37,085 bases of DNA, taken from assembly GCA_017481285.1 (NCBI GenBank), contig JAFUPI010000047.1, positions 1 to 37,085 of the forward strand, given 5' to 3'. The notes below the pieces were generated by a model, which ran no database searches, was not told the origin of the DNA, and worked only from the letters and a program-made list of their open reading frames with translations. This document shows positions 14,602-30,064 of the stretch, piece by piece. The position numbers were made by a program, and so were the translations under genes. Numbering within the stretch: the stretch's first letter is position 1; each line of letters begins with the position of its first letter. The DNA is from Agathobacter sp. Lineage in GTDB: Bacteria > Bacillota > Clostridia > Lachnospirales > Lachnospiraceae.

Positions 14602-15648
14602 ATGTTACGAATTTTAATTATTGATGATGTGGAAACCAACCGATTTGTTCTCCGCAACATTATTACGGATATGGGTTATCAGCCAGTGTTAGCTGAAAAT
14701 GGAAAACAAGGGCTTAAGATTATGGAGCGTATTGTTCCGGATTTAATCCTTTTGGATGTTGCGATGCCAGAAATGGATGGATTTGAATTCGCGGATATTA
14801 TCAAAAAAGATGTGAAGACCAGAAATATTCCGATTATCTTCATTTCAGCATTTGATGCACCTCAGGATATTGTAAAAGGCTTTGAGGCAGGCGGAGCAGA
14901 TTATGTAACGAAACCTTTCATTCAGGAGGTTGTAAAATCAAGAGTTGCAGTACAGCTGAAACTTGCAGAGATGAATAAGACTCTGGCAGATACCAATCGC
15001 AGATTACAGGTTTCTATCACAGAACAGCTTCGTCAGTTGGAAGCAGAAAAGAAAAAAGTATTATATGCACTTTTAACCGTAGTACGTAAAAATGCAGTGT
15101 TTGATGAAAGTCATATCGAAAGACTTCAGGAGAATTGCAAGATTTTAGCACAGGCAATGCAGCTTTCTCCAAAATACGAAAGTATTGTTTCAGATACATT
15201 TGTAGAAACAATTGAGCTGGCAGCACCACTTTGCGATTTAGGTATGGTAGGTGTACCATTGGATATTTTGCAAAAAAACGGCAAGTTATCGGATGAAGAA
15301 ATGGCGATTGTACAAAAACATACAGCGATTGGAACTCAGATTATGGAAGATATCAAAGGTGATGGTGACTATAACGATTTCGTAGATATGTCCTGTGATA
15401 TTACTAAGTACCATCATGAAAGATGGGATGGAAGTGGTTATCCAAATGGTAAGTCAGGAAACGATATTCCGTTACCAGCACAGGTTGTTTCTTTGATTTC
15501 TTACTATAATGCTTTGACCGAAAAACGTTCTTACCGTGATGCGTATAGCAAGGAAGAGGCGATTCAGATGCTTGAAGCAGAATCAGGAAAGGCTTTTAAC
15601 CCTGATATTTTTGTAATCTGCAAGAAAATTGCAAGACAATTAAAATAA
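14602..15648 (+). CDS. Response regulator with degenerate HD-GYP domain
   Basis: A 348-residue protein. The receiver is complete: acidic pair in IIDDVETN, phospho-acceptor D52 in LILLDVAMPEMDG, switch serine in IFISAFDA and the lysine in YVTKPF. A coiled-coil linker (about 120-155) leads to an HD-GYP domain, normally a c-di-GMP phosphodiesterase. HHERWDGSGYPNG is present (H271, H272), as is the KHTAIG histidine. However, the HD pair reads CDLG (C211-D212), and the usual D-x-x-D before ALT reads SYYNALT. Two or three metal ligands are therefore changed, so catalysis is doubtful and the domain may bind c-di-GMP or a partner instead. It lies between its likely kinase and cheR, with 12-base gaps. 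Confidence 0.9.
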   Translation: MLRILIIDDVETNRFVLRNIITDMGYQPVLAENGKQGLKIMERIVPDLILLDVAMPEMDGFEFADIIKKDVKTRNIPIIFISAFDAPQDIVKGFEAGGADYVTKPFIQEVVKSRVAVQLKLAEMNKTLADTNRRLQVSITEQLRQLEAEKKKVLYALLTVVRKNAVFDESHIERLQENCKILAQAMQLSPKYESIVSDTFVETIELAAPLCDLGMVGVPLDILQKNGKLSDEEMAIVQKHTAIGTQIMEDIKGDGDYNDFVDMSCDITKYHHERWDGSGYPNGKSGNDIPLPAQVVSLISYYNALTEKRSYRDAYSKEEAIQMLEAESGKAFNPDIFVICKKIARQLK

Positions 15649-17543: not shown

Positions 17544-17936
17544 ATGAGAATTTTATTAGCAGAGGACGATTTCGTAACAAGAAAGTTTATGAGCAACTTC
17601 TTATCCAAGTATGGCGAATGCGACGTTACCGTTGACGGTTTGGAAGCGGTTGATGCATTTATGATGGCTTTGGAAGAAGGTGAGCCTTACGATTTGGTAT
17701 GTCTTGATATTATGATGCCAGTTATGGATGGATATCAGGCATTGGTAGGCATTCGTAATTTGGAAAAAGAACGTAATATTCCAGAAGACAAATCAGTTAA
17801 GGTTATTATGGCAACAGCATTGAATGATGAAAAGAATGTAAAAATGGCTTTTGAACTTGGATGTACTATCTATTCTGGAAAACCAATTGATCAGGACCGC
17901 TTCGAAGAAGCATTAAAGAGATTGGATTTAATCTAA
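17544..17936 (+). CDS. cheY: CheY-like single-domain response regulator
   Basis: A 130-residue receiver with no output domain. The acidic pair is in LLAEDDFVTR, the phospho-acceptor is D55 in VCLDIMMPVMDGYQ, the switch threonine is in IMATALND and the lysine is in YSGKPID. The strong site AAAGGAG precedes the ATG. It lies between cheB and cheA, the expected place for the CheA-phosphorylated output. Compared with classical CheY it has a longer alpha3-beta4 loop (LEKERNIPEDKSVK). Such variants often occur in chemosensory systems that do not act on a flagellar motor, so binding to FliM should not be assumed. Confidence 0.92.
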   Translation: MRILLAEDDFVTRKFMSNFLSKYGECDVTVDGLEAVDAFMMALEEGEPYDLVCLDIMMPVMDGYQALVGIRNLEKERNIPEDKSVKVIMATALNDEKNVKMAFELGCTIYSGKPIDQDRFEEALKRLDLI

Positions 17937-20641: not shown

Positions 20642-22009
20642 ATGAAAATCAATAAAAAATTATACATGCGTACAAAAATCATAGTAAGTTTTATTATTCT
20701 AGATATTTTGGTGTTATTTTTACTTTGGGCTGGATATTCAACAGCATCAACAATTGTATATGACCCAACAATCAACCCAGAGAGATATTTAATGAGCTAT
20801 AATATTTTCTCAGGACTTATCCTTGGAATTTTCCTTGTTGTAGCAGGTGGTATTTCTATTGTAATTCCAAGACAGCTTCGTAAGAGTAGCCAGAATCTTA
20901 TCAATATTACCAAAGAAATTGCAAGAGGTAATATGGATGTGGAAATCAAAAAAGTCTATAATGACGAATTCGGTGCTGTTATTGATGAATATGTAATTAT
21001 GGTAGAAAACATTCGTGCACAGGCAATGCTTGCACAGGCAGTAGCGAATGGCGATATGACAGTAGATGTTATCGCATCTTCTGACGTGGATACCATGGGT
21101 AACGCATTGAAAACTTTGGTACAGCGTAATGGTAGTGCTCTTGGCAACATTAACGATGCAGCATATCAGGTAATGACCAGTGCTTCACAGGTAGCAAGTG
21201 CCAGCGAAGCATTAGCACAGGGCTCTACCGAACAGGCAAGTGCAATCGAACAGATTACTTCATCTATTAGTGAAATCGCTGAAAAGACAAGAGAAAATGC
21301 TTCTCAGGCAAATCATGCAGCTAACTTAGTAAATGAAGCAATTCAGGATGTAGAAAAAGGTAACGAAGAAATGCGAGAAATGGTTATCGCTATGGAAGAT
21401 ATCAACAAATCTTCGGAAAGCATTTCTAAGATTATCAAGGTTATTGACGATATCGCATTCCAGACCAATATTCTTGCTCTTAACGCAGCAGTAGAAGCAG
21501 CTCGTGCAGGAGATGCAGGAAAAGGCTTTGCAGTAGTAGCAGAAGAAGTTCGTAACTTGGCTGCTAAGAGTGCAGCAGCAGCTTCTGAAACAGCAGAAAT
21601 GATTGAAGATTCTATCGCAAAAGTAGCAATAGGTTCTCGTCTGGCAGATGAAACAGCAAAAGCATTGGAAGATATTTCAAATGCTGTAAAACAGAGTGAA
21701 GTTATTATCAATAATATTGCAGAATCATCGAACTATCAGGCAACAGCGGTAGCACAGATTAACCAGGGTATCGGTCAGGTATCTCAGGTTGTTCAGACAA
21801 ACTCAGCAACTAGTGAAGAATGTGCAGCTGCCAGTGAAGAGCTTTCTAATCAGGCAGTTCGTATGAGAGACTTACTTTCTATTTACAAGTTAAACGAAAG
21901 TGCAGTTGTTTCTCGTTATCATGAGTTAGAAGAGGAAGCAAATACTGCTTCAGCAGTAGATGCAAATGAACCAGTGATTTCTCTTGGTGAGGGATTCGGA
22001 AAATACTAA
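20642..22009 (+). CDS. Methyl-accepting chemotaxis protein with minimal extracellular part
   Basis: A 455-residue receptor. TM1 (about 13-33) and TM2 (about 53-73) are separated by only some 20 residues, so there is no ligand-binding domain outside the cell. Sensing must be in the membrane, cytosolic or via partners. A HAMP domain follows TM2 ([20 protein letters not shown]), then the signalling hairpin with tip [20 protein letters not shown] and [15 protein letters not shown]. The C-terminus ([11 protein letters not shown]) has no NWETF-type CheR tether. It is encoded 2 bases after cheW and is presumably the cognate receptor of this array. A strong hairpin follows. Confidence 0.95.
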
Positions 22010-22079: not shown

Positions 22080-24824
22080 ATGGGCAAGTATGATTACCTT
22101 AAATCATATGAAAGACAAATAGAATCGATTGTAGTTGCGATTGCTTCAATATATTGTTTTACAGAATTAATTTTAGGATATCAAAAGAACTGGAATCCTT
22201 GGGGGCAGATGTCGGTATTTGCAGGTTTACTTTCCATGTGGGTGTTCTTTTTTGGAAAATATAAAAGCTTTGAAGTAAGAGCACATGTGACCTGTTTAGC
22301 TTCTCAGATTATGATTTTGGTATATGGAATTGAGTGTGGAGATTTTTACTTAATTTTGTCGCTCTTTATCAGTCTGTGTATTTTATTAGGCTTGTATGGT
22401 GTAACGCGGGCAATGATTTATCCATTTATCTCTTATAATACTCTAGTTCTGTATTACATTTTCGTTGCAAAACAGTTGAACTGGGGTGTGTATGACACAG
22501 ATATTGGTATGGTAACTCGTATTTTACAGGGCTACTTGACATTGTTTTTGGTTATTTATCTGGTATACCGTTACAAAACCTCTCAGGAAAGCATGTTAGA
22601 AATGATTGATGCACTGAGAAAATCAGAGCGTGAAAAGGATGATTTCCTTGCTAATGTCAGCCATGAAATTCGTACTCCAATTAATACCATTTGTGGTATT
22701 AGTGAGATTATGTTAAAGAATGATGTTCCAGCAGAAATGAAAGAAGACGTACTGAACATTCAGTCTGCTGGTCGAAATCTTATGTCTGTAGTAGGAGATA
22801 TTTTGGATTACTCTGAATTGCAGGAAGGAGATTTCGAAATTGTAGAAGAAAATTATTATGTTAGCTCTACCATTTATGATGTTATCAATATGTCTATGGC
22901 AAAGAAAAGCGAGAAAAAGCTGGAGCTTATCGTAGACTGTGAAGCAGATATGCCAAGTGTTTTGATTGGTGATGAGCAGAAGATTCGAAGAGTTATTATG
23001 AACCTGGTAAACAATGCCATTGAGTTTACCGCTGAAGGTTGTGTAAGTATTCGTTTCGGATACCGTAAAGAAGAATATGGCGTAAACTTAATTATCTCTG
23101 TAAAAGATACAGGTATTGGTATGACCAAGGAAAGTGTTGAAAATCTGTTTCAGAAATTCTCACAGGCCGATATGGGACGTACCAGAAAGAAGGGCGGTGT
23201 AGGCCTTGGTCTTGCCATTGCCCAGACTATTGTCAACCGTATGGGTGGTTTCATTACGGTTATGAGTGAGTTAGGAAAAGGCAGTGAGTTTAAAATCGTT
23301 ATTCCACAGAAGGTTTATGATCCAAAACCAATCGTAGAGCTGCCAGAAAAAAATGAAATTAATGCAGCAGTATACATCAATATGGAGCAGTTTAGATATA
23401 ATGAAATCCGTGATGAATACGGCGAAAATATACAGCGTCTTGTAGAGCAGCTTAAGGTAAAATGCCATGTTTGCCGTAATCTACAGGAACTTAAGAGATG
23501 GGAAAAACGTGAGGACTTCAATCAAATCTTTATTAGTTTGATTGAATATCAGGAAGATCCAGTTTACTTTGATAATCTTGCAAAACGAAACAATGTACAT
23601 ATTATTTTGGATCATTATGATGATGCAAAGGTGCAGAATAAGAATTTAAGCAAGATTTACAAGCCATTCTTTGTATTGTCTATTATGGCTGCCTTAAAGA
23701 ATGCTATGGCACAAAATGGGGAGAAGATTGTTGAAGTAGAAAATCATCAGCTTTATGCACCAGAAGCACATATTCTGGTTATTGATGACAACCGTATGAA
23801 TATTCGAGTAGTCGAAGGTTTACTGAGAGCCTATGGAGTTAAGGTTTCCTATGCATTAAGTGGACAGGAAGGTATTGATATGCTTTCTTCCAAGGCATAT
23901 GATTTGATCCTCTTAGACCATATGATGCCTGGTATGGATGGTGTAGAAACCTTCCATCACATTCGTAAGAAACCAGATTTATATTACAAAGAAATTCCTA
24001 TTATTGCATTGACGGCGAATGCGATTGCTGGTGCGAGAGAAATGTTTATCAAGGAAGGGTTCAATGATTTTGTGGCGAAACCAGTAGAAAGCTCTGTATT
24101 GCAGCGTACCTTGAAACGTCATCTTCCAGCAGAAAAATTAAGAACCTTAGATGAAGCAGAACGAATCCAGATAGAGGCCAAACAGGCTGAAACTTCAAAA
24201 TCAGCTTCTGCATCAGAGGGAGAACTGGTTATCGGGGATTTGGATATTTCGAAGGGAATTATGTATTGCGGTAATCAGGAAAACTACCTCGAAATATTAT
24301 CTAGCCAGAGAGATAGTGGTAAAGATATTATTGAACAGGCACAAAGTTTGTATGAAAAAGCGGACTGGAAGAACTATGTTATCGTAGTACACGGTATCAA
24401 GAGCTCTATGATGAGTATTGGTGCAGTGAAGCTTTCGGAAATGGCAAAGGCATTGGAATTTGCTGGAAAAGGTGAAGATTTCGACTTTATCCGAAGAGAA
24501 CATGCTACAATGATCAAAGAGTTTGAACGTGTAATGCAGATTTTGTATGATTGTAAACTTTTGACACCGCAGGAAGAGGAACAGGTAGTTGTGAATAAGC
24601 CTGAACTATCAGATGCGGATTTTGCACAGAAATTAGTAGAGTTAGAGAATGTCACCTACGAGTTTGATGCAAATAAGGTGCTTCCAATTTTGGACGAATT
24701 GAGTAAATATGCATATCATTCCAAGGATTTGGAGAAAGAATTAAAGCCAGTATACAAGAAAGTAGAAATGTTTGATTTTATGTCTGCTTATGAGACAGTA
24801 GCGAAAATCAAAGAAAAGGCATAA
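22080..24824 (+). CDS. Membrane hybrid histidine kinase (HisKA-HATPase-pseudo REC-REC-Hpt)
   Basis: A 914-residue phosphorelay kinase. About six hydrophobic spans (residues 15-165) without an extracellular domain are followed by HisKA with H195 in FLANVSHEIRTPINTICG. HATPase boxes are IRRVIMNLVNNAIEF, KDTGIGMTKESVENLF and GGVGLGLAIAQTI. Residues of about 430-545 resemble a receiver that has lost its aspartate. A complete receiver (LVIDDNRMN, D612 in LLDHMMPGMDG, ALTANA, VAKPVE) and an Hpt domain (H771 in VVHGIKSSMMSIG) follow, then about 65 helical residues. The intact Hpt means phosphate can be handed to another receiver, for example CheY or the HD-GYP protein, but the target is not encoded with it as a DNA-binding regulator. 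Confidence 0.93.
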   Translation: MGKYDYLKSYERQIESIVVAIASIYCFTELILGYQKNWNPWGQMSVFAGLLSMWVFFFGKYKSFEVRAHVTCLASQIMILVYGIECGDFYLILSLFISLCILLGLYGVTRAMIYPFISYNTLVLYYIFVAKQLNWGVYDTDIGMVTRILQGYLTLFLVIYLVYRYKTSQESMLEMIDALRKSEREKDDFLANVSHEIRTPINTICGISEIMLKNDVPAEMKEDVLNIQSAGRNLMSVVGDILDYSELQEGDFEIVEENYYVSSTIYDVINMSMAKKSEKKLELIVDCEADMPSVLIGDEQKIRRVIMNLVNNAIEFTAEGCVSIRFGYRKEEYGVNLIISVKDTGIGMTKESVENLFQKFSQADMGRTRKKGGVGLGLAIAQTIVNRMGGFITVMSELGKGSEFKIVIPQKVYDPKPIVELPEKNEINAAVYINMEQFRYNEIRDEYGENIQRLVEQLKVKCHVCRNLQELKRWEKREDFNQIFISLIEYQEDPVYFDNLAKRNNVHIILDHYDDAKVQNKNLSKIYKPFFVLSIMAALKNAMAQNGEKIVEVENHQLYAPEAHILVIDDNRMNIRVVEGLLRAYGVKVSYALSGQEGIDMLSSKAYDLILLDHMMPGMDGVETFHHIRKKPDLYYKEIPIIALTANAIAGAREMFIKEGFNDFVAKPVESSVLQRTLKRHLPAEKLRTLDEAERIQIEAKQAETSKSASASEGELVIGDLDISKGIMYCGNQENYLEILSSQRDSGKDIIEQAQSLYEKADWKNYVIVVHGIKSSMMSIGAVKLSEMAKALEFAGKGEDFDFIRREHATMIKEFERVMQILYDCKLLTPQEEEQVVVNKPELSDADFAQKLVELENVTYEFDANKVLPILDELSKYAYHSKDLEKELKPVYKKVEMFDFMSAYETVAKIKEKA

Positions 24825-24847: not shown

Positions 24848-27514
24848 ATGTTAAAAAAGATATTGAACGTGTTTATAGATGAAAAAATGGATATTAAGGA
24901 GAGATTGTTCCGTATTATTTTGGTAGTAGGAACAACAGTAGTAGGTTTGGCAATTTTACAGGGACTTACTTTGATTAACGCGGATAGTCTTATGATGATT
25001 TATGGCATTATGTTTGCGGCCTTTGTATCTGCATTAATTTTGACCTTTAAGTATCGAAATATTGAATTATCCTCCACCATTTTAGGGTTTGCACTGATCG
25101 TAGTAGCCTTGCCATTTATCTTTTTAAGAGGTGGCGGTGTAAATAGTGGTTCTGGACTATGGATGTGTTTGGGAATTTTTTACATCTTTATCATGTTTTC
25201 GGGAAAGAAACTAGCTTTCTTCCTGATACTCACCTTAATTATGGATATTGCCTGTTATGTGGTTTCTTATTTGTATCCAGATCAGGTAATCGAATTGGCG
25301 ACACCTTTTGAAAAACATTTTGATTCTATCTTTGCAGTTGTAATGGTAGGATTTACAGTTGGTGTTATTATGAAATTCCAGTTAAAGGTTTTTGATAAGG
25401 AAAGACAGTTAACACAGGAACAGAAAAAAGAATTAGAATTGGTAGGCAAATCCAAAGATGCGTTCTTTGCAAGTATGAGTCACGAGATTCGAACTCCAAT
25501 TAATTCCATTATTGGGTTAAATGAGTTAATTTTGCGTGAGGACCCATCGGTAGAAATTCAAGGATATGCCAAGAATATTCAGAATGCCAGCAAGATGTTA
25601 TTGTCTCTGGTAAATGATATTTTGGATTTGTCCCAGTTAGAAATCCAAAAAATGGAGTTGGTGGAAAAAGAATATGAGGTGGAAAATCTTCTTCATGAAG
25701 TTGTAGATATGATGCAGGTTCGAATGGAAGAGAAGAAGTTAAACTTTATTGTTCAGGTTGACAAAAATATTCCATCCAAGCTTTATGGAGACGAAAGACG
25801 TGTGAAGCAGATTCTTCTCAATATTCTCTCAAATGCAGTAAAATATACAGAAGAAGGAGCGGTTACTTTAAATTGTCGCTACGAGCAAAGTGACGCAGAA
25901 AAGGTGTTTCTTCGTATTTCGGTAGCAGATACTGGAATGGGGATTCGAAAAGAAGAACTGGAGCATCTGTTTGATGCTTTCCGTAGAATCAATACAGATA
26001 GAACGCAGAAGATAGAAGGTACTGGTTTGGGACTCTCTATCACCAAGCATTTGTTAGATTTGATGCAGGGAGAAATTACAGTAGACAGTATTTATACACA
26101 AGGTTCTGAATTTACTGTGGTGATTCCACAAATCATCGTGGATGAGGCTCCATTGGGTGAATTTACAACTAAGATAATGGATAAGAAGTCTGCGACATAT
26201 TATAGTAAATCTTTTGAGGCTCCAGAAGCACGTATTTTGATTGTAGACGATGATGATTTGAATCTTATCATCACAACAAAATTGTTACAAGATACGAAAA
26301 TGTCGATTGACACTGCAAGCAGTGTGGATGAATGTTTGCGAAAAACAAGCAAGAGATATTATAACCTTATTTTGATGGATTACATGATGCCAGGTATGAA
26401 TGGCGGAGAACTTCTCCGTGAGCTGCGTAAACAGGAAAATGGCTTGTGTAGAGAGTCGAATGTAGTGTTGTTATCTGCAAATGTTCTGGCAGATAAGCAA
26501 ATAGAATATCAGCAGATGGGCTTTGATGGTTTGTTGGAAAAACCAGTAGATGCTGTTCGTTTGGAAAATGAGGTAATGAAGCATATTCCGGATGAGTTGA
26601 TTGAATATCGTAGAGATACGATGAATGGATTAAAGAGCGAATATTTTGTTTCGAGACTTTCCAAACGTCGCAAGAAAGTATATGTTACATCAGATGGTGT
26701 TTGTGATTTAACACCAGAATTGATTGAAAAATACAATGTAAAACTGATTGACTTATATATTAAGACAGAAACAGGAAGATTCCGCGATACGAAAGAGATT
26801 GATATTCACAATCTGTCCAGATATTTGTCAGATGAAAACTCCACCGCGTTTTCTTTGTCACCAACAATAGAGGATTATGAACGATTTTTTGCTGATACAT
26901 TGATGGAAGCGGATAATGTGATTTATATTTCTATGGCAAGTGGTTCGGGACATTGTTATGAGAATGCAACAGAAGCGGCAAAAGGTTTTGCTCATGTTCA
27001 TGTTGTAGATTCTGAACACATTTCTTCTGGGCAGGCACTTGTAGTGTTACATGCGGCGAAAATGGCTTCCGAAGGTGCTACTGTGCAGGAGATTTTGAAA
27101 GAAGTAGAGGCAATGAAGTCAAAAGTAAAAGCCTCTTACCTGCTTCCAAGTACACGTATTTTTTATCAAAAAGGTTTTACAGATAAGCTTACAGCGAAAA
27201 TTTGTGATGCATTTAGATTACATCCAGTGCTTGGCTCATACAACCATAAAATTACAGTTTTAGGTGTACGTGCTGGAAAAATGGAAAAAGTATGGAAGCA
27301 GTTTATTCGTTTCCATTTGAGAAACAGCTCCCGAATTGATGATAGAATTGTATTTGTTGTGCATGCAGGATGTACTGTGAGACAACAGGAGATGCTATTA
27401 GAAGAAATCAATCGAAATATGAGGTTCAAGCAGGTTGTATTTACACAGGCTTCGTCAGCGAGTGTATGTAATGCAGGGCTAGGCTCTATTGGTTTTGCGA
27501 TTTATCAAAAATAG
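24848..27514 (+). CDS. Membrane hybrid histidine kinase fused to a C-terminal DegV domain
   Basis: An 888-residue fusion. Residues 15-180 are about six hydrophobic spans. HisKA has the phospho-histidine at about H212 in FFASMSHEIRTPINSIIG; HATPase boxes are VKQILLNILSNAVKY, ADTGMGIRKEELEHLF and EGTGLGLSITKHL. A complete receiver follows (LIVDDDDLN, D510 in LILMDYMMPGMNG, LLSANV, LLEKPVD). From about 610 to the end, some 278 residues match a full-length DegV (FakB-type fatty-acid-binding) fold: YVTSDGVCDLTPELIEKYNV, TAFSLSPTIEDYERFF, ISMASGSGH, VVDSEHISSGQ and VFVVHAGC. No stop or frameshift separates the parts. The usual SSxLSGT loop is altered to SMASGSG. It probably couples a lipid ligand to phosphorelay output; this is inference. 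uppP follows after 12 bases. Confidence 0.92.
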   Translation: MLKKILNVFIDEKMDIKERLFRIILVVGTTVVGLAILQGLTLINADSLMMIYGIMFAAFVSALILTFKYRNIELSSTILGFALIVVALPFIFLRGGGVNSGSGLWMCLGIFYIFIMFSGKKLAFFLILTLIMDIACYVVSYLYPDQVIELATPFEKHFDSIFAVVMVGFTVGVIMKFQLKVFDKERQLTQEQKKELELVGKSKDAFFASMSHEIRTPINSIIGLNELILREDPSVEIQGYAKNIQNASKMLLSLVNDILDLSQLEIQKMELVEKEYEVENLLHEVVDMMQVRMEEKKLNFIVQVDKNIPSKLYGDERRVKQILLNILSNAVKYTEEGAVTLNCRYEQSDAEKVFLRISVADTGMGIRKEELEHLFDAFRRINTDRTQKIEGTGLGLSITKHLLDLMQGEITVDSIYTQGSEFTVVIPQIIVDEAPLGEFTTKIMDKKSATYYSKSFEAPEARILIVDDDDLNLIITTKLLQDTKMSIDTASSVDECLRKTSKRYYNLILMDYMMPGMNGGELLRELRKQENGLCRESNVVLLSANVLADKQIEYQQMGFDGLLEKPVDAVRLENEVMKHIPDELIEYRRDTMNGLKSEYFVSRLSKRRKKVYVTSDGVCDLTPELIEKYNVKLIDLYIKTETGRFRDTKEIDIHNLSRYLSDENSTAFSLSPTIEDYERFFADTLMEADNVIYISMASGSGHCYENATEAAKGFAHVHVVDSEHISSGQALVVLHAAKMASEGATVQEILKEVEAMKSKVKASYLLPSTRIFYQKGFTDKLTAKICDAFRLHPVLGSYNHKITVLGVRAGKMEKVWKQFIRFHLRNSSRIDDRIVFVVHAGCTVRQQEMLLEEINRNMRFKQVVFTQASSASVCNAGLGSIGFAIYQK

Positions 27515-29584: not shown

Positions 29585-30064
29585 ATGGCTAGAAGAGGTT
29601 TGACGGGACAATTGAATATGTTTGATTTATATAATTCACTGGATGCAGGTGAAGTTGAGATGGTCTCCTTGGTGCCAGACTTTGAAGAAGAGCCAGTGGT
29701 TGAGGAAGCCCAAGAGAACGTGGAAGAGCCAGTGGTTGAGGAAGCCCCAGAGGACGTGGAAGAGCCAGTGGCTGAGGAAGCCCCAGAGGACGTGGAAGAG
29801 CCAGTGGCTGTGGAGATTCCAGAGATTACGGTGGAGCCAGAATATGTAGAAGAAAAGCCGCAAGTGTCGTTGAAAGATGAAAAAGTATCCATGTCAAGAA
29901 GCTATGTAATTGATGGTGAAAAAATTGAAATCGCATATATCAATTATAATAAGGTGAAAATCACCAGAGGCAATAATGTTCCAGTCATTAAAACATTTGA
30001 ATCTACAAAAGAGGCAGTAGATTATTATGTAGAACAAATGCAGGAGTTAGAGAGCGATGAATAA
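29585..30064 (+). CDS. Acidic repeat protein of unknown function
   Basis: A 159-residue protein I do not recognise. The N-terminus MARRGLTGQLNMFDLYNSL is followed by an acidic, proline-containing region built from a 12-residue repeat (EEPVxEEAPEDV, encoded by a 36-bp tandem repeat). A basic-to-beta C-terminal segment (SYVIDGEKIEIAYINYNKV, then ITRGNNVPVIKTFES) follows, ending in a helix. There is no signal peptide, membrane span or LPxTG, so it is probably cytosolic and not a sortase substrate. GAAAGAGAG precedes the ATG. It overlaps the sortase gene by 8 bases, implying co-translation. Confidence 0.75.
   Translation: MARRGLTGQLNMFDLYNSLDAGEVEMVSLVPDFEEEPVVEEAQENVEEPVVEEAPEDVEEPVAEEAPEDVEEPVAVEIPEITVEPEYVEEKPQVSLKDEKVSMSRSYVIDGEKIEIAYINYNKVKITRGNNVPVIKTFESTKEAVDYYVEQMQELESDE
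29687..29812 (+). repeat. 36-bp in-frame tandem repeat
   Basis: Three full 36-bp units start at 29687, 29723 and 29759, and a partial fourth starts at 29795; each begins GAAGAGCCAGTGG. The units are nearly identical, with a few substitutions (for example CAAGAGAAC against CCAGAGGAC). The period is a multiple of three, so copy-number changes keep the reading frame. Confidence 0.92.

Follow-up and report, generated by a model that had tools for sequence, protein, structure and literature searches.

The gene at positions 24848 to 27514 (forward strand) of the 37,085-nucleotide stretch of DNA analysed here, which we call the window, encodes a hybrid histidine kinase with a complete DegV domain at its C-terminus. 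DegV/FakB proteins are carriers in lipid synthesis. On balance, sequence comparison favours placing this gene in a phosphorelay of two kinases and one HPt, where the repurposed FakB-like domain would act as a regulatory, probably ligand-sensing module. The proposal draws on the domains, the intact catalytic residues, the pairing of the two kinase genes, the single HPt of each pair, the loss of Fak residues and the relocation of the DegV domain, all of which are visible in the sequences. Lachnospiraceae gut bacteria appear to have rebuilt a fatty-acid carrier as a movable part of paired signalling kinases. The conserved partner kinase encoded directly upstream, which an earlier sequence-only reading of this DNA had missed, is the main clue to function.

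Domain organization of the DegV kinase

The gene is an unbroken frame from ATG to stop that encodes 888 amino acids. The first 185 residues (24848-25402) had no Pfam match and form a membrane region, with Kyte-Doolittle peaks in residues 23-179 that are compatible with several membrane helices. This region is followed by a HisKA domain (residues 203-265, 25454-25642; 63.7 bits), an HATPase_c domain (residues 314-428, 25787-26131; 91.4 bits) and a receiver (residues 463-575, 26234-26572; Response_reg, 76.7 bits). Alignment placed the phospho-acceptor, a role taken from the family, at His212 (25481-25483), and the receiver aspartate at Asp511 (26378-26380). The DegV domain (residues 610-887, 26675-27508) matched Pfam PF02645 at full length, over profile positions 1-279 of 280, with 122.2 bits against a cut-off of 27. 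The protein also scored 133.2 against a cut-off of 99.7 for the NCBIfam DegV family TIGR00762. No HPt domain was found in it.

Residues H212, N325, D467, D468, D511 and K565 were unchanged in all 34 full-length members of the alignment, among them the window protein. This invariance suggests that both the kinase and the receiver are active. The features of a hybrid histidine kinase are all present: a HisKA domain with its His, an HATPase domain, and a receiver with its Asp and Lys. The sequence-only reading had described one continuous frame running from a membrane region through HisKA, HATPase and an intact receiver to a full DegV fold, and had taken DegV to be covalently joined to a two-component relay. 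The frame, the Pfam domains and the invariant catalytic residues bore out both statements, and the match to the DegV family, on which that reading had staked its fold assignment, lay well over the cut-offs.

No stop or frameshift separates the receiver from the DegV part. A goat-colon metagenome-assembled genome (MAG) carries a DegV kinase (L121) that is also 888 residues long, with a DegV part 85% identical to that of the window. The window gene is therefore not an assembly join; a sequencing or assembly artefact was rejected on the grounds of this equal-length gene in another MAG and of many relatives of similar length. Between the two DegV parts, dN was 0.097 and dS 2.41, pointing to purifying selection. 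A second contig of the same MAG (L122) has a DegV sequence identical to that of L121 and is likely a duplicated contig. The genome of the window itself, 71% complete with 1.96 Mb on 100 contigs, encodes one FakA and five further DegV proteins, all of them stand-alone.

A partner kinase precedes the DegV kinase

Upstream on the same strand lies a second hybrid kinase of 914 residues (22080-24824), in which the frame, Pfam and comparison of loci revealed HisKA, HATPase, a pseudo-receiver-like region, a receiver and an HPt. The pseudo-receiver-like region (residues 414-564, 23319-23771) is diagnostic of the partner; it had no Pfam match, and its label follows from position and sequence. The HPt (residues 740-794, 24297-24461) scored 21.8 bits, below the Pfam cut-off of 24.6, which its relatives at L071 (26.5) and L213 (31.5) exceeded. 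Only 23 nt separate the end of the partner from the start of the DegV kinase.

This arrangement was highly conserved. We examined 106 distinct loci, obtained from 119 by removing 13 with repeated DegV sequences; L133 and L142, in which a longer reverse frame masks the DegV frame, were left out. In 97 of the 103 loci with an upstream ORF, the gene immediately upstream, on the same strand, was a partner scoring at least 300 bits against window positions 22080-24824, and the gap between the two genes was 30 nt or less in 91 of these 97 pairs. The partner was likewise upstream in seven of seven further loci, five of them new (L204 and L205 repeat L161 and L186). Among the six loci without an adjacent partner over the threshold, the partner was one gene further upstream at L049, whose own DegV kinase gene is split by a frame change, and was broken, cut or short at L070, L163 and L196; L075 and L076 are divergent. 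The frame change at L049 (6684-9363 of that locus) separates the receiver and DegV parts into overlapping frames of 631 and 285 residues. At L070 (genome G196) the fused frame does not end with DegV but continues through codons that cannot be read and a stretch of prolines, and a stop lies in the partner region; this locus looks decayed or misassembled.

Pairing was also evident across genomes. Both genes occurred in 46 of 299 genomes of the family, a DegV match only in six and a partner only in three. The 61 partner regions at E 1e-20 or better (out of 72 found at E 1e-8) and 67 DegV matches gave 56 same-strand pairs within 6 kb. Several of the 11 unpaired DegV matches lay near contig ends, and two others (G103 and G041:C32) had a different architecture. 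Two of the six genomes with DegV only (G099 and G114) contained plain free DegV proteins in which the five FakB residues considered below are kept. The unpaired partners were those of G022:C48, G233, G134, G188 and G156. In G022:C48 and G134 the contig ends on the downstream side of the partner, and in G156, one of the three genomes counted as having the partner only, a 907-residue DegV-part match lies downstream, seen with the window query and missed by the profile of fused domains. G188 (L222) has a real partner-type kinase with no DegV gene behind it, as does the weaker-matching G066 (L223).

Each pair contains a single HPt

We scored HPt domains with an HMM built from the window and six HPts located on DegV proteins (L066, L067 and L071-L074), at a threshold of 15 bits. 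The pattern expected of a shared HPt, one kinase without the domain and the other with it, held throughout: the HPt was on the partner in 91 of 97 pairs and on the DegV protein in the remaining six, with no pair having it on both or on neither. In those six loci the partner is 680-695 residues long and lacks the HPt. Pfam concurred, placing an HPt after DegV in L071 and none in the L066 partner. The six swapped loci formed one clade on the HK-REC tree (support 100/99), implying a single relocation of the HPt. As this swap is one evolutionary event, the 97 concordant pairs do not amount to 97 independent tests. The HPt nevertheless moved between adjacent kinases while its number stayed at one, which is good evidence that both kinases use it. 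The kinase pair very probably shares one relay, and this is a clear case of domain relocation tying two kinases into one pathway.

The DegV domain has diverged from FakB carriers

We used Staphylococcus aureus FakB1 as a residue ruler; the sequence employed agrees with PDB 6alw at 288 of 288 residues. According to excerpts of two studies (PMC8892158, PMC9136124), FakB1 holds the fatty-acid carboxylate through Thr62, Ser95, Ser171 and His270, requires Arg173 for phosphorylation, and uses Arg205 to dock FakA and the membrane and to contact the bilayer. A tree of 84 DegV domains, from which the duplicates L078-L082, L084 and L085 were left out, placed 46 fused-type domains on one side of a branch (100/100), beside seven free DegV proteins. 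The DegV of the window falls in a clade separate from ordinary FakB-like DegV.

In the window domain all five tested residues are replaced (T62S, S95G, R173F, R205A and H270N), the last by Asn875 (27470-27472), and the site for the head group has thus been rebuilt. The sequence-only reading had pointed to an altered loop, quoted as SMASGSG. The alteration is real, with FakB1 residues 91-97 (SSGISGS) corresponding to ASGSGHC and Gly at the Ser95 position, although the quoted motif begins two residues early.

Similar losses were seen throughout the clade. Only two of 111 fused-type domains kept Arg205, which 33 of 37 free DegV proteins from related bacteria retained. His270 was kept in none of the 111 (Asn in 97), against 32 of 37 free proteins (four gaps); L224, a fused member outside this set, retains it. 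Thr62 was kept in four (Ser in 59) versus 32 of 37. Arg173 and Ser95 were kept in 43 and 44 of the 111, respectively, while both were present in all 37 free proteins. Not one of the 111 domains had all five residues together, and 44 had none. The clade has also gained conserved features of its own, namely a T-x-x-G-x-F motif, FFA, and a His in place of Lys188. From the loss of Arg205 in 109 of 111 domains, the complete loss of His270 and the absence of any intact set of five, we consider it highly probable that the window DegV domain is not a FakA substrate. Key features for handing fatty acids to an enzyme are among those lost, so the rebuilt domain probably reports on a molecule and no longer serves as a carrier.

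The ligand tunnel was examined at five positions named in excerpts of PMC8892158, counting A, V, I, L, M, F, W, C and Y as hydrophobic. Hydrophobic residues occupied position 121 in 111 of 111 fused-type domains (36 of 37 free proteins), position 162 in 107 (32 of 37), position 191 in 109 (36 of 37) and position 271 in 75 (20 of 37). Position 158 was hydrophobic in 18 of 111 domains versus 24 of 37 free proteins, and is polar in most fused-type members. Four of the five positions are therefore mostly hydrophobic in the clade, although residue counts cannot show a cavity. An acyl ligand for the domain, as in the direct acyl sensor put forward by the sequence-only reading, is conceivable, with the balance tilted somewhat against it.

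Free-standing and relocated forms of the domain

The DegV domain of this clade was also found outside the usual fusion. Three loci, L213, L214 and L215, have a free-standing clade DegV of 283, 284 and 302 residues, respectively, as the next gene after the partner. At L216 (1513-8304 of that locus) DegV is the N-terminus of a 958-residue HK-REC protein; the partner there has no HPt, a separate gene upstream encodes a 123-residue HPt (Pfam 22.6 bits, just below the cut-off), and a REC-REC-HD protein is also present. At L217 and L220 (the same gene as L075) DegV follows an HATPase protein that weakly matches the partner's pseudo-receiver-like region (28 and 31 bits); Pfam detected neither HisKA nor a receiver in these HATPase-DegV proteins. 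Two GGDEF proteins (Pfam) follow the HATPase-DegV protein at L217 (5576-8624), and at L220 proteins of similar length (459 and 553 residues) come after it; c-di-GMP may be the output there.

On a 68-row tree, the free-standing, N-terminal and HATPase-linked forms all fell inside the signalling clade (100/100, 53 rows), together with the window, in which DegV follows the receiver as an effector would. The free-standing trio L213-L215 branched outside the remaining forms (99/96 for the rest; only 92/67 for the trio itself). Since free-standing DegV behind the partner branches outside all fused forms, the tree suggests that the domain was first a free companion of an HPt kinase and was fused later. 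These natural variants, free, C-terminal, N-terminal and HPt-swapped, allow tests of DegV function.

Distribution

Searching with the DegV part of the window gave matches at E 1e-25 or better in 85 of 299 genomes of the family. Many of the matching frames were about 890-930 or 1115-1166 residues long, and others had ordinary DegV length. A profile of the fused domains matched at E 1e-66 or better in at least 52 of the 299, a figure that takes in a few free-standing forms. The profile surveys scored the first 8-10 candidates per genome, so some copies can be missed, as happened in G156. The DegV-kinase fusion, which the sequence-only reading had marked out for a survey of Lachnospiraceae, does recur in this family. 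Among 12 other genomes of the same genus, several of them incomplete, fused frames of at least 890 residues occurred in four and a 493-residue frame in one. Among the named relatives are Agathobacter, Roseburia hominis An869 and Agathobacter ruminis JK623, the last also a member of Lachnospiraceae; the named loci are the best 80 of 340 and tilt towards close relatives.

Fusions outside the family are rare. An order sample of 246 genomes contained the fused form in at least one genome of another family (G527, 924 residues), and a class sample of 245 genomes in at least two (G585, 908 residues; G659, 911 residues). At E 1e-62 or better, no fused form outside the family of the window appeared among the candidates scored in 299 genomes sampled from the phylum; the matches outside this family lay in frames of 284-336 residues, plus one of 580 residues in G562. 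The latter was rejected as a fusion, being a stand-alone-type DegV preceded by a low-complexity stretch. Automatic annotation would display both the DegV and the kinase domains. In the literature, no DegV-histidine-kinase protein was recognisable from title or start of abstract among the matches listed, with most subscription papers and all preprints outside the search.

Neighbouring genes and candidate outputs

In the window, the kinase pair is preceded by genes for a REC-HD protein, CheR, CheB, a CheY-like protein and a methyl-accepting chemotaxis protein (MCP); CheA- and CheW-like genes were named by eye. Two of these neighbours are candidate relay targets: the REC-HD protein (14602-15648, forward strand), an HD-GYP-like protein with CD instead of HD, relatives of which are in many other loci the gene just before the pair, and the CheY-like single receiver (17544-17936, forward strand). 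The MCP upstream of the pair (20642-22009, forward strand; ORF and Pfam) has 455 residues and belongs to a chemosensory cluster next to the kinases. Judged by eye, it has little sequence separating the membrane segments at its N-terminus and little room for a ligand domain. Labelling neighbours by similarity, with the REC-HD type defined as at least 300 residues and best matching the REC-HD protein of the window, we found before the 97 pairs an MCP in 30, a REC-HD type in 28, a small REC in 17, a CheY-like protein in three, another gene in 13 and a contig end in six.

CD (once SD) replaces HD in 13 of 29 aligned REC-HD-GYP-like proteins, including that of the window, and HHExWDGSGYP is retained in those. 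The REC-HD protein of the window is perhaps a phosphodiesterase turned binding protein. Downstream, positions 29585-30064 encode a small, acidic protein that contains repeats resembling EEAPEDVEEPV and matched nothing in Pfam.

The sequence-only reading had seen a lipid theme in the following UppP and Sfp-type genes, and this did not hold. UppP was the next gene in only four of 104 loci with a downstream ORF (the window, L121, L123 and L147) and in one of seven further loci (L203). Following so few of the loci, it says little about function, and a lipid theme from neighbours was rejected.

Proposed function of the kinase pair

In the mechanism that we favour, the DegV kinase would be one half of a two-kinase phosphorelay, each kinase having its own HisKA, HATPase and receiver. 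Phosphate from both would pass to the single HPt, which normally forms the end of the partner, and from there to a receiver output encoded nearby, of the single-domain REC, REC-HD or CheY-like kind. The DegV domain descends from a FakB-like fatty-acid carrier, has lost features required for FakA service and membrane docking, and bears a conserved signature of its own. Its former tunnel probably takes up a ligand that is small and amphipathic or modified in some other way, and the domain probably tunes the kinase pair. The phosphate flow, the binding of a ligand, its identity and the sign and direction of control are what we infer from the observations above. A sensor role is plausible because DegV forms the N-terminus of the HK-REC protein at L216. 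Counting against this explanation are the Arg173 and Ser95 retained in 43 and 44 of 111 domains, the His270 of L224, the polar position 158 and the partners without a DegV gene.

A more specific version is tentative. It holds that the DegV clade is a new cytoplasmic lipid- or acyl-sensing class, recruited as a free protein to an HPt-bearing hybrid kinase, later joined to a second kinase and moved to one end or the other, and that the phosphorelay of gut Lachnospiraceae reads acyl molecules from the membrane or the host and drives receiver outputs such as HD-GYP-like proteins or the chemosensory cluster. The clade in any case illustrates how a FakB-like fold may become a signalling part by dropping Fak docking and joining a phosphorelay, and it points to a candidate signal for bacteria of the gut, Roseburia and relatives of Agathobacter among them.

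Alternatively, DegV could be a ligand-free docking or dimerisation surface for the partner kinase or for a fatty-acid-loaded free FakB, as the FakA C-terminal domain, which binds FakB (PMC9136124), docks FakB. Free-standing copies directly behind the partner fit this idea, as do the FakA and five other DegV proteins of the genome and a weak FakA-like_C match of the domain (20.7 bits, cut-off 23; 24.0 at L217). We nevertheless regard it as unlikely, since the FakB-type DegV match is far stronger and the tunnel is mostly hydrophobic at four of five positions. FakA_C also uses Glu548 (PMC9136124, in part), whereas the window protein ends in YQK and many aligned rows, FakA being outside the alignment, are basic there.

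DegV could also be the output, with receiver phosphorylation opening or closing the domain so that the kinase controls lipid uptake or release at the membrane. Response regulators carry their outputs C-terminal to the receiver, the place that DegV occupies here. In addition, FakB1 changes conformation at membranes, as stated in an excerpt of PMC8892158. However, the domain also occurs free-standing behind the partner, at either end of a protein and on an HATPase protein without a Pfam receiver, which makes regulatory input more likely than receiver-driven output. The bilayer-contacting Arg205 is lost in 109 of 111 domains. Within the membrane helix, only 29 of 111 domains have a hydrophobic residue where FakB1 has Trp180, compared with 31 of 37 free proteins, although positions 181 and 185 stay hydrophobic (109 and 110 of 111). 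We therefore consider an output role improbable. Finally, a DegV domain still working as a fatty-acid carrier for FakA while tethered to the kinase would accord with its full length, the FakA in the genome and the Arg173 kept in some members, but is very improbable given R173F and R205A in the window, the near-universal loss of Arg205 and the lack of any domain with all five residues, 44 having none.

Comparison with known systems

The regulatory, probably ligand-sensing module that we favour can be set beside several known proteins. Its DegV domain resembles the FakB/DegV family (PF02645, TIGR00762; S. aureus FakB1) in its full-length match over the cut-offs and in the four of five mostly hydrophobic tunnel positions, and differs in sitting within a kinase and in keeping none of the five tested residues. 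The FakA C-terminal domain (PF13684) offers a related profile at a kinase C-terminus, with the sub-threshold match noted above; FakA, however, is a fatty-acid kinase and not a histidine kinase, and this match is much weaker than that to FakB-type DegV. In S. aureus SaeRS, two-component signalling depends on a fatty-acid status linked to fatty-acid kinase, the link being indirect, via the free fatty-acid pool, in the portion of the source consulted (PMC5539427). Both systems would be fatty-acid-linked two-component systems, whereas in the DegV kinase the FakB-like domain is an integral part of the protein.

For the shared HPt, LadS-GacS/GacA of Pseudomonas aeruginosa provides a tested precedent, in which one hybrid kinase makes use of an HPt that belongs to another kinase (PMC4866733, seen in excerpt). 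The DegV kinase, having no HPt, would similarly use that of its partner. To our knowledge, LadS and GacS have no DegV domain. In contrast to LadS-GacS, the two genes of the putative relay are adjacent here, and in one lineage the HPt has changed places between them.
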